A DNA stretch of 35,366 nt from Candidatus Ozemibacteraceae bacterium. GTDB lineage: Bacteria; Muiribacteriota; Ozemobacteria; Ozemobacterales; Ozemobacteraceae. Below the pieces are notes generated by a model. The model saw only the letters and a program-made list of their open reading frames with translations. It was not told the DNA's origin and ran no database searches. A program made the position numbers and the translations under genes. Below, piece by piece: positions 5,208-33,475 of this stretch. Position 1 is the stretch's first letter, and the number at the start of each line of letters is the position of its first letter. The stretch covers positions 1 through 35,366 of the forward strand of contig CALLCO010000233.1 in NCBI GenBank assembly GCA_937998695.1, written 5' to 3'.

Positions 5208-6092
5208 TCAGAACCCGACGCTGGCTCCGAGGTAGAGGTAGGGGTCTTTCTCGAGGGAAAGCCCCAGCACTTCGAGCTGGGCGTTGCGGGTGCCGAACCG
5301 CACGCCCGCATTGAACGAGGCACGGGTCGAGTCGTCCTTGTACAGATCCCGATAATTGGCAAACTTCCCCTCGCAGAACAAAGAAACGGAGTCGTTCCAG
5401 GCATATTCGAGACCGACGCCGCTGACCAAAAACTGCTTGGGCTCGAGGGTCAGGGTTTGGCCAAGGCCGAGATCGATCTTCTGTTTGTCGGTGAAGCAGT
5501 ATTTCAGGTTGAGATACCCGTAGAACGCTTTGGCCAACTTTTCTGAAATGGTCAGATAGACATGGCGAAGGTTCTCGATTTGCGACAGGTCGGCGCGGTT
5601 GAGCTCGTAGGCATCCATGGGGGCAAAGGAAAAGCCCATGCAGAGGTCCTGTTCGGCGTTGTGCGTCGAGTATTTCATGCCGAAGGTGGTCGAGTCTTCA
5701 TTATAGGTGAGACCGGCCAGAAGAGGGTCAGCCGACCGCTCGTAGCGCAGGTTGAGCACGGACAGCTCGAGGTTCGGCTTCGCCTGGTAAACCAGTCCGG
5801 TGAAGTGCTCGTTCTTCGACAACCGGTACCGGGTGCGATTCAGAGTCAGGTCGCGCTTGGTGATGCCGCCTTTGTAGGTGACGATGGCGGTGCGGTCTTC
5901 CTGGATTTCGGGAGTGGGAATGCTGATTAACCCCGTGGTCCCCGACAAGGTGGTCCCCAGGTGCATCGGCTTGTACACCGGCAACTGCTCCACCTCGGGA
6001 TCGACGGTCAGAATCTGCCCAAATGAACGAGAGGCCACAAGAATGATCGACAAAAGAACGAGGATAAAAACCTTGAACCTGGTTCGGATCAT
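5208..6092 (-). CDS. Outer-membrane beta-barrel-like exported protein (YjbH-like flavour)
   Basis: Signal peptide MIRTRFKVFILVLLSIILVASRSFG; GTTGLISIPTPEIQEDRTAIVTYKGG near the N-terminus; alternating amphipathic strands; terminal F (LYLGASVGF). Confidence 0.6.
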   Translation of the reverse strand: MIRTRFKVFILVLLSIILVASRSFGQILTVDPEVEQLPVYKPMHLGTTLSGTTGLISIPTPEIQEDRTAIVTYKGGITKRDLTLNRTRYRLSKNEHFTGLVYQAKPNLELSVLNLRYERSADPLLAGLTYNEDSTTFGMKYSTHNAEQDLCMGFSFAPMDAYELNRADLSQIENLRHVYLTISEKLAKAFYGYLNLKYCFTDKQKIDLGLGQTLTLEPKQFLVSGVGLEYAWNDSVSLFCEGKFANYRDLYKDDSTRASFNAGVRFGTRNAQLEVLGLSLEKDPYLYLGASVGF

Positions 6093-29639: not shown

Positions 29640-29746
29640 GCGGGTCGTGCGTTTCCCGAGGATGGTCCGCGGGAAAACGCCGTCCTACGGTGCCCGTGGG
29701 CCCTCCCCATTCCTGGGGTGATCCCGCTATGCAACGGAGGTCTGGC

Positions 29747-32317
29747 ATGAATCGTCTGTGTTGGTTGGCCCTGGTGGCCGTGGTGTTCGGATGCGCCGTC
29801 GGGGCAGAAGCCGCGCCCCTCTTCGACTACAGCGGGATCTTCCCCGCCGACCGGGCGCCAGGAGCGACCATCACCCATTTTCTCCTGCTGGACAAACCGA
29901 AACGTCTGGCCTTTCGGCTCGTGAATCCGGCCGGACAGCCCTTGCCGGGGGTACGGGTGGTTGAGGTGAGCTCGGCGGCCGATGGGGCCGTGTCCCGAGC
30001 TGACCCCCGGGGTCTGTCCCAGGTCGAGCTGACCGTGCCGGGCATTTATGAAGTCAGGGTTGGCACCGCCGACCCCCCAGGGAAGGAACTGGCCTTCCGC
30101 CTGGAAGTCATCGACGAGGGCCCGGTTTCTCCCGCCGGGTCGGTCCCGGCGAGCACGGGCACGGGGACGGCGTCGCCCCCCCCTGCGCTGCCTCCGACCG
30201 GGCCAACGCCTGCGGCCGGAGTGGCGGTCTCTGCGGGTTCAACTGCCACGGCCAATGCGGAACCTCCGCCCATCCTCAATCTTCCGACCCCCGTGGGGCC
30301 CACCCCCGATGTGCTCTCACCTTCCATCCCTATACCGGGAAGCCTCCCCGAAGGGCCCCTACCATCCGCGGGCATCCCTGCCCCGGGCATGCCCACCGCC
30401 GCTGCCGCCTCAGAGGCTCTGAAAGCACCTGGAACCTCCTCCGTCTCCGCTGCGGGCCCCGCGGCCACCGGTACGACACCCACCCCGGCACCGTCCCCTG
30501 CCAACCCCGGGGGCGGGTATTCAGCGCGTCTGCTTTCTCCGGCTGGCGTGGGGTTCGCCAATCCTTTCAAGCCGGTCGAAGTCAGGTTCGACCGCGAACT
30601 GCCCGCCGGCACCCGTCTCGAGGATGTCGTCCAGGTCTTCCACCTCGACGCCGCCGGCCGAGAACGCCCCGTTCCCGGCAGTCTGGTTCCGTCGGGCCCC
30701 GACGGAGCCCGGTTCATCCCCGTGAGCTACCTCCGGGGTGCCGTTTTCCAGGTGCGGGCGCTCGACCCGGCGAGTCGACAACCGGTCGGGACCTTCCGGT
30801 TCCAGACTCTGCCTGAGCTGCTTCTGAAAGCCGAACCGGTGGCCGATGGTCTCCGGATCGACCTGTCCTGGCCGGAAATCAAGGACCTTTTGCCCACCCA
30901 GGAAGGACAGGTCGTCCAGTTGGGCGATGTCGTGGTCCAGGTCCGCGGAGAGCGGGAACCGCCCCTCGAATTCGCCGTGACCCCCGAGCTTCCCCCCTTC
31001 GGAAACCAGGATGGAATCGGTTTCCAGGGGCAACCGTTCCGGTTGGTGTTGACCGTGCCGCGGGCCCGCCTGCCCCGCGACGGACCGCTGAACGTCATTC
31101 TCCTGGCCAGGGTGACTGAGGTTCCGCAACCCCTCGAGGTCCTTCGGACCACGTTGCCCAATCTGCCCGGAAGCGACGATTCCCTGGCCGATGCTCCGGC
31201 CGATGAGGGAGAGTCCATTCCCTCGCCAGGGACCTTAGCCTCTGGGCCCGGCATCATCGCCGCGGCGACCGGCGTGGCGGTGCTGCCGTCCTCTCCGGTG
31301 CCTGCCCCGGCTTCGCCACCAGTGCCGGTGGTTGCCCCGTTGCCTCCTCCTCCTCCTCCTCCTCCTCCGCCGCCGCCGCCGCCTCCTCCTCCTCCTCCGC
31401 CTCCTCCTCCTCCGCCGCCGCCGCCTCCGCCGCCGCCGGAGCCGATCGTCCTGAAACCGGTGGTTCCCATGGCCGATCCCGGTCCCCGTGCCACCCTGCA
31501 AAAGGTTGGCTCCTTCAAAGTGGGGGAAGGCGGGCCCAACGACTTCATGGCCTGGCCCCGCGGCCTCACCTGGGGGCCTGACGGCAGTCTATGGGTCACC
31601 GACAGCCAGAATCGCCGGGTGTACCGGTTCACCGAGGAGGGACGCCTGATGAAGGCGTTCGGGCAAAAGGGGAAGGGACCCGGCATGCTCGGCCTGCCCA
31701 TCGACCTCGCCGTGGCCCGCGAGGAAGTGTTCGTGACCGATACCGCTGCCCACGCGGTCCATGTCTTCTCGACCGACGGCACCTTCCTCCGCACCATCGG
31801 GACCTGGGGCACACGCCCGGGGCAGATCGATCTGCCCCACGGACTGTTCCTCGCCTCCGACCAGGTGGTGCTGGCCGACCGGGGCAATGCGAAGATCCTG
31901 CGCTTCGGATTCGACGGAACCTACCGGGGTGGCTTCGGAACCCGCGGTGAGATCCCTGGGGCACTGAAGAACCCGATCGCCGTGCAGGGTACCGCCACCG
32001 ATCTGCTGGTACTCGAAGAACAAGGGCGTCTCCAACGCTTTTCCTGGGAAGGAAAATTCCTCGGCCAGCTGGCCTATACCGCCCGGGAACCGAGCGGGAT
32101 GCAGCTCGATCCCTGGGGCGGCCTGTGGGTGGCCGATGCTGGCGCCAACCGGGTGGTCCGCCTGGACGCCCGTGGGAACAGCCTCCTGGCCCTCGAATCG
32201 GGCGAAGGGGCCAAGCCCTGGGTGCCAACCGCGGTCGCGATCCGGGCCGACGGCCTGGTCGCGGTGGCTGACGGCGAAGGGAAATTGATCCGGCTCTATC
32301 GCCTGATGGCTCCCTGA
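29747..32317 (+). CDS. Exported protein: Pro/Ala-rich region, Ig-like segment, 32-residue polyproline tract, C-terminal NHL-repeat beta-propeller
   Basis: ATG 29747 after ACGGAGG; signal peptide MNRLCWLALVAVVFGCAVGAEA; C-terminal NHL-type blades (WPRGLTWGPDGSLWVTDSQNRRVYRFTEEGRLMKAFGQKGKGPGMLGLPIDLAVA...). Confidence 0.8.
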   Translation: MNRLCWLALVAVVFGCAVGAEAAPLFDYSGIFPADRAPGATITHFLLLDKPKRLAFRLVNPAGQPLPGVRVVEVSSAADGAVSRADPRGLSQVELTVPGIYEVRVGTADPPGKELAFRLEVIDEGPVSPAGSVPASTGTGTASPPPALPPTGPTPAAGVAVSAGSTATANAEPPPILNLPTPVGPTPDVLSPSIPIPGSLPEGPLPSAGIPAPGMPTAAAASEALKAPGTSSVSAAGPAATGTTPTPAPSPANPGGGYSARLLSPAGVGFANPFKPVEVRFDRELPAGTRLEDVVQVFHLDAAGRERPVPGSLVPSGPDGARFIPVSYLRGAVFQVRALDPASRQPVGTFRFQTLPELLLKAEPVADGLRIDLSWPEIKDLLPTQEGQVVQLGDVVVQVRGEREPPLEFAVTPELPPFGNQDGIGFQGQPFRLVLTVPRARLPRDGPLNVILLARVTEVPQPLEVLRTTLPNLPGSDDSLADAPADEGESIPSPGTLASGPGIIAAATGVAVLPSSPVPAPASPPVPVVAPLPPPPPPPPPPPPPPPPPPPPPPPPPPPPPPPPEPIVLKPVVPMADPGPRATLQKVGSFKVGEGGPNDFMAWPRGLTWGPDGSLWVTDSQNRRVYRFTEEGRLMKAFGQKGKGPGMLGLPIDLAVAREEVFVTDTAAHAVHVFSTDGTFLRTIGTWGTRPGQIDLPHGLFLASDQVVLADRGNAKILRFGFDGTYRGGFGTRGEIPGALKNPIAVQGTATDLLVLEEQGRLQRFSWEGKFLGQLAYTAREPSGMQLDPWGGLWVADAGANRVVRLDARGNSLLALESGEGAKPWVPTAVAIRADGLVAVADGEGKLIRLYRLMAP
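31343..31438 (+). repeat. (CCT/CCG)32 trinucleotide tract encoding 32 consecutive prolines
   Basis: Direct count: CCTx8, CCGx5, CCTx5, CCG, CCTx4, CCGx4, CCT, CCGx4 = 32 codons. Confidence 0.97.
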
Positions 32318-33006: not shown

Positions 33007-33085
33007 TTTGAGCCGGGTGCGTCATCCCTCCGCCACCAGTGCAGGCATTGCCTGGCGTAGTAAGACTACCGCATTTGAAACATCC

Positions 33086-33304
33086 ACCCTGGGGTCGGAT
33101 TCGCCGGAAGACACCAATGGAGCAGGCCGGATCGGTCCGAGGGAGAGGCCGATTCGACGTCTCGGGAGGCCTGGATGGCCTCGCGCCTCGCAGATCGCCA
33201 TGGATGGCGATTCTGCGAGGTTCTGACGACGAATCGGGCCGAACCCGAGGCCACCGATCCGAGCCTGCGGACTGGTTGTCTGGAGGCGAACCCGGCCCCA
33301 GGGT
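33086..33304 (+). ncRNA. Candidate structured RNA: nested stems enclosing a three-way junction (alternative: foldback/MITE-like element)
   Basis: P1 33086-33105/33285-33304 (18 WC + 1 GU of 20); P2 33109-33116/33273-33281; P3 33122-33136/33253-33268; P4 33137-33143/33244-33250; P5 33147-33161/33225-33240; hairpin H1 33166-33182; hairpin H2 33186-33220. Confidence 0.6.
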
Positions 33305-33475
33305 TCAGGAAACGACGGAAGTCATATGAGGCCCCGATCCCGGGGGGTCTGCCGGCCATCTCTTTCACCAGTCAGCCGGCCAGCAAAATGCCGCGCTTCC
33401 CTGGGGAAACGGCCTGCCGTGCCCTCTGCCGGGCCAACCCCCGAGGCCGGGCCGAGGCGGGGCTCCGATCGGAAG

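Follow-up and report, generated by a model that had tools for sequence, protein, structure and literature searches.

The window analysed here, a 35,366-nucleotide stretch of DNA from a Candidatus Ozemibacteraceae bacterium (contig CALLCO010000233.1), carries a strongly self-complementary element in the 477-bp spacer between a FecR-like gene and a lipoprotein gene, which are convergent. Directly upstream of the FecR-like gene lies an 875-aa ORF (29690-32317, + strand); the middle of the protein holds a very long polyproline run, and its C-terminal half looks like a beta-propeller (NHL-like). The element and its parts are as follows.

33061-33326, + (the strand showing the GGA loops): whole MITE copy of 266 bp, delimited by the ends common to 17 full copies
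33057-33060, no strand: left target-site duplication GTAG, in the place of the 4-bp YTAR-like duplication of the family
33061-33071, +: left terminal inverted repeat (TIR) TAAGACTACCG (family form TATGACTACCG), from end searches and full-copy comparison
33101-33290, +: conserved putative RNA core, TwoAYGGAY-like, positions 1-190 of covariance model R1 (193.7 bits, a score given by construction, as the window is among the 20 R1 sequences)
33166-33182, +: apical hairpin H1, GAGGCC-TGGAT-GGCCTC, with a GGA loop and a stem that covaries across genera
33186-33220, +: apical hairpin H2, CCTCGCAGATCGCC-ATGGAT-GGCGATTCTGCGAGG, with the loop AUGGAU, the best conserved part across genera
33316-33326, +: right TIR CGGAAGTCATA (family form CGGTAGTCATA), from end searches and full-copy comparison
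33327-33330, no strand: right target-site duplication TGAG, decayed, at the position of the family duplication

The original prediction described a single, unusually stable intergenic structure at 33086-33304, built from helices P1-P5 and the hairpins H1 and H2. All of these helices were found in their places, and the predicted fold agrees with them. The stability also withstood comparison with shuffled sequence: the region 33040-33330 has a fold energy of -171.3 kcal/mol on the + strand, against -113.8 +/- 5.3 kcal/mol for the shuffles (z -10.8), and of -168.3 kcal/mol on the - strand (z -11.5), and none of 200 shuffles was as stable on either strand. The extent had been drawn too small, the true element being 33061-33326, and the structure is not a single one: it is a dispersed repeat, present dozens of times within its own genome.

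BLAST of the element against this genome (G000; 4.53 Mb in 324 contigs) placed strong matches (85-97% identity) at about 40 sites, many of them at contig ends, where a repeat that breaks assemblies is expected to lie. End-pattern searches recovered 38 left and 32 right ends in G000, where reversed control patterns had no matches. The covariance model R1, built from 20 sequences of four genera, all of them Riflebacteria, gave 46 matches in the same genome, partial copies at contig ends included. The 17 full copies with TATGACTACCG and CGGTAGTCATA ends are mostly 263-266 bp long, three being longer (273-280 bp); the repeats of the window copy, TAAGACTACCG and CGGAAGTCATA, are a local, slightly degenerate form of this family TIR. 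When the left and right flanks of each copy were compared with mispaired flanks from other copies (500 shuffles), a direct repeat of 4 bp alone stood out, with agreement at 49 of 68 positions, where mispaired flanks averaged 35.4 and never exceeded 44. These duplications are YTAR-like and are perfect in 6 of the 17 copies; the non-palindromic perfect pairs ATAG/ATAG, CTAT/CTAT and CTAA/CTAA exclude inverted-repeat extension as their source. In the window copy the duplication has decayed (GTAG/TGAG), and two of its four bases agree.

The same gene pair was examined in a genome of the same genus (G001), where the FecR-like and lipoprotein genes are collinear with those of the window and the spacer measures 161 bp vs 477 bp, although what remains of that spacer is too diverged to define a base-exact empty site. 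No copies of the element were found in G001 or G002, either by DNA or by the structure model. The family is thus short, non-coding and multi-copy, with TIRs, target duplications and an empty locus in a relative, as is characteristic of a MITE, and it spreads as a TIR-bounded unit of ~265 bp that duplicates its target over 4 bp. We regard it as nearly certain that the structure in the window is one copy of such a mobile element, a non-autonomous DNA transposon. A foldback MITE had been the alternative named in the original prediction, to be recognised by many copies with target-site duplications; BLAST and the comparison of flanks revealed both, together with the TIRs and the locus empty in G001.

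Among known elements, the family resembles IS5-derived MITEs in its length (about 265 bp), in being without a transposase gene, in its TIRs and in its 4-bp YTAR-like duplications; YTAR is the target duplication motif of IS5 (PMC10359306). It differs from them in a structured, covarying core that is kept across genera and shells, and no IS5-type parent matching the family was found in the assembly. The ends of the Riflebacteria elements include TATGACTACCG and GTGAACTTTCGCAC. No autonomous transposase with family ends was found near the matches to DDE_Tnp_1, the one transposase family covered by the search, in the fragmented G000 assembly. A broken DDE transposase fragment (PF01609) with one in-frame TGA is present at 26-319 of the window on the - strand, and no element-like ends were found near it. 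At L082 in G000, where a right end stands alone, the ORFs show no transposase when read by eye.

The element is not confined to one genus. The central hairpins matched three genomes of other genera of the same family (G005, G007 and G010) at low significance, and the regions, when folded, had unrelated arms with the same architecture, a long stem with internal loops, a three-way junction and two apical hairpins. With R1, G005 had 11 matches, G007 had 13 and G010 had 16; G009 had 4 weaker matches, and the remaining 35 genomes of the phylum Riflebacteria had no match at E <= 0.001. Further subfamilies inside the element-bearing genomes have the same architecture, yet other sequences. The elements of G007 have GTGAACTTTCGCACTTTTTTC ends, and their duplications measure exactly 5 bp, with agreement at 33 of 40 positions (mispaired mean 15.9, maximum 28); the duplications are perfect in L139, L141, L134, L241 and L242. 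The terminal repeats of the G010 and G005 elements are different again. The core is carried in at least two transposon shells, one with 4-bp and one with 5-bp duplications, and has therefore outlived a change of terminal repeat and duplication length. At L224 and L247 in G005, two element subfamilies seem adjacent or nested, and the right flank of L224 resembles an L247-type element with an internal deletion.

The covariation proposed as a check of the helices was assessed in two alignments. In a sequence-based MAFFT alignment, double changes occurred at 33 of 58 pairs, pairing cells reached 95.5% (80.2% shuffled, at most 46% slid) and the covariation score was 0.439 (0.166 shuffled, at most 0.096 slid). 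In a wider set of 24 sequences that included Agathobacter rectalis, double changes rose to 54 of 58 pairs and the score to 0.634 (0.189 shuffled, at most 0.105 slid), in an alignment that was fitted to the model and hence leans towards it. The pairs covary across genera far beyond both controls, and the alignments show that the predicted fold of the core, rather than its sequence, is kept between genera. GGA is found in the H2 loop of nearly all representatives and in the H1 loop of about two thirds; the H1 loop, UGGAU in the window, reads CGA or TGA in several lineages, and the H2 loop varies among AUGGAU, AUGGAA and others, with AYGGAY fitting most copies. An RNA is expected to show an excess of G-U over A-C cells, and the excess was modest (47 vs 34, with two constitutive G-U pairs left out).

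Recent copies behave otherwise than this deep conservation. Within a recent burst in G000, 3.5% of paired and 6.5% of unpaired positions had changed, with 72 pairs broken and 3 compensated; the loops were not spared, and GGA was lost in some copies. Inserted copies look largely unconstrained, so the deep conservation must come from source elements, and it is on these, not on each inserted copy, that selection appears to act. The decay of copies also favours a role at the level of the element, whether as a decoy or in transposition, over a benefit to each neighbouring gene.

The kinship of the core was assessed with models used in both directions. Rfam gave no match for the window at the gathering threshold; the best match in E-value mode was RsmW at 21.9 bits, far under the RsmW threshold, and RsmW shares the Rfam clan CL00106 with RF01731 (TwoAYGGAY). 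RF01731 itself had no matches at E <= 0.01 in 40 Riflebacteria genomes, control genomes included. Below its gathering threshold of 43 bits, its best scores were 33.0 bits (L133, G005) and 29.9 bits (L139, G007), in both cases over the full length of the model (1-168) and on the correct strand and place. As RF01731 remained below threshold in Riflebacteria, the test was reversed with R1. A BLAST search with the family consensus located an RF01731 locus in A. rectalis (NZ_CP143948), and a score of 159 bits confirmed it; R1 matched this locus over the full model (1-190) at 45.1 bits (E 9.7e-12). Across 250 kb of NZ_CP143948, R1 made four matches, and the three that were tested with Rfam are RF01731 (149-159 bits). 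R1 contains no TwoAYGGAY sequences, and its recovery of RF01731 in A. rectalis establishes homology; from these reciprocal matches we hold with high confidence that the core of the element is a TwoAYGGAY homologue.

The likeness extends to the long stem, the junction, the two apical hairpins, the H2 letters GCCAUGGAYGGC and the flanking letters UGGA-GC ... GCGUAG, with models that match both ways. Unlike the described family, the copies in Riflebacteria stay under the family threshold and have stems that are longer and rod-like; in some cases their H1 loops are without GGA, and they lie in high copy number inside TIR-bounded mobile elements. A search with the H2 letters as a pattern also matched Alphaproteobacteria, Mesorhizobium and others; these matches were judged to be chance because the model aligned mostly the H2 letters only, and two longer alignments among them (29.2 and 22.3 bits) kept little of the stem. 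What had been proposed as an undescribed structured ncRNA is therefore structured in its core but not undescribed, and a plain undescribed ncRNA is ruled out by the copy number, the TIRs, the duplications and the homology to RF01731. The case also shows that being a MITE need not keep a strongly structured intergenic element from being a real RNA as well.

The four A. rectalis copies have cores that are 72-89% identical. Their outer arms (L259-L263, 26 nt and more) are 81-96% complementary within each copy; across copies the arms reach only 50-65% identity, where shuffled sequence gives about 0.57 in alignment. By this comparison the arms drift in sequence and stay paired. All four copies lie between genes that are co-directional with them.

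In the rating of Weinberg et al. (2010, PMC2864571), TwoAYGGAY is likely to be an RNA and unlikely to be cis-regulatory. Its two hairpins match the CsrA-binding motif, and sequestration of CsrA has been proposed for RF01731 (PMC4333381). We found no paper that demonstrates a function for this class, which was described in 2010. The reading that we favour, with a probability of roughly 0.55, is a MITE that carries a divergent TwoAYGGAY RNA, whose GGA loops would serve as a decoy for CsrA or as a means of CsrA control. It starts from the mobility of the element and its homology to RF01731 and adds transcription and CsrA binding, which we infer. The MITE would be moved by a DDE transposase supplied in trans and would be transcribed by read-through or from a promoter. 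The + strand transcript is predicted to form a long rod with two hairpins at its tip, and the GGA loops of these hairpins could hold a CsrA dimer. The element may in this way act as a CsrA decoy, or may place the neighbouring transcript under CsrA, and selection would fall on active source elements and not on every inserted copy.

Each of the five element-bearing genomes has one csrA gene. CsrA binding as the function of the element is conceivable, at somewhat less than even odds: most genomes that lack the element have csrA too, and the CGA or TGA in the H1 loop of several lineages is not an expected CsrA target. Against the favoured reading also stand the modest excess of G-U over A-C, the decay of recent copies and the lack of a promoter match; no terminator-like match was found either. 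The sRNAs CsrB, RsmY, RsmZ and RsmW are regulated genes at one or a few loci. The window family shares with them the GGA in hairpin loops, and RsmW and RF01731 share an Rfam clan; its own form, however, is a long rod topped by two apical hairpins, its copies are many and mobile, and its CsrA binding is predicted. Among the mechanisms considered, the CsrA decoy comes first, though unproven, and its main rival is a role of the DNA in transposition.

Under that rival, which we hold to be a serious but minority possibility, a folded single strand or cruciform would be needed for transposition and the resemblance to CsrA-binding RNA would be secondary; the apical hairpins might, for example, be recognised at excision, or a lagging-strand hairpin might aid mobilisation. 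Selection apparently acting on source elements is what a feature related to moving predicts, both strands fold almost equally well, and the outer arms remain complementary while free in sequence. However, the core is found with different TIRs and duplication lengths, one strand repeatedly shows the GGA loops and, within internal loops, G-A mismatches, and Rfam and the literature treat TwoAYGGAY as an RNA. TIR elements with 4-5-bp duplications fit cut-and-paste of double-stranded DNA, for which an internal fold is not needed.

Integron attC sites offer another DNA-level comparison, being likewise imperfect palindromes with conserved unpaired features. In G007 (contig C545; L312 496-3161), half of a TwoAYGGAY core adjoins an integron-type integrase gene that is broken or split (TIGR02249, 256 bits vs a cut-off of 265). 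This IntI-like integrase was rejected as the autonomous partner, as the match at the far TIR is weak and of low complexity, and the pairing did not recur in other genomes. No cores were found beside the integrase relatives tested in other genomes, and no integrase relative was found in G000. The window family, unlike attC sites, has TIRs and target duplications, and no cassette arrays were seen; in place of a regular association with an IntI-type integrase there is the single half core in G007.

A functionless foldback MITE is improbable. It would have arisen by inverted duplication, and correction of one arm by the other during replication (template switching) would mimic covariation. The decay of copies once inserted fits such an origin, and correction could yield arms like those of A. 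rectalis, complementary within each copy and dissimilar between copies. The same correction would nevertheless erase the internal loops and the two-hairpin apex, yet both recur, in sequence as well as in position, across genera and in another phylum, and the H2 letters are the most conserved part.

Least probable is a 3'-end or terminator element for the two convergent genes of the window locus: although the window copy and 9 of 19 G000 copies (18 with an ORF on both sides) lie between convergent ORFs, there is no terminator-like site, divergent ORFs flank 6 of 12 G010 copies (an ORF was called on both sides of 10), G001 has the same gene pair without the element, and copies stand in every orientation to their neighbours by these rough ORF calls, which leaves the locus-specific 3'UTR role put forward in the original prediction unsupported.

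The CsrA decoy reading, if true, would describe a bacterial DNA transposon that carries, in place of a gene, a conserved regulatory-type RNA fold; with dozens of copies, CsrA control might in principle be shifted genome-wide. In another phylum, TwoAYGGAY thus forms the conserved inner part of transposable elements that are present in high copy number and have at least two shells. This points to an RNA class able to spread by mobility, and gives it a testable role. A broader proposal, that TwoAYGGAY-class RNAs are cross-phylum mobile modules acting as selfish CsrA decoys in several unrelated shells with freely changing complementary arms, is tentative, and we lean against it.

The class was also met in phage-related sequence. 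Of eight IMG/VR contigs tested, four that are prophage-like (L274, L275, L282 and L286) carry RF01731 at scores exceeding the Rfam threshold. In the Pseudomonas phage record MT121968.1, a DNA relative at 5289-5467 lies between a tail protein gene and an annotated transposase gene.
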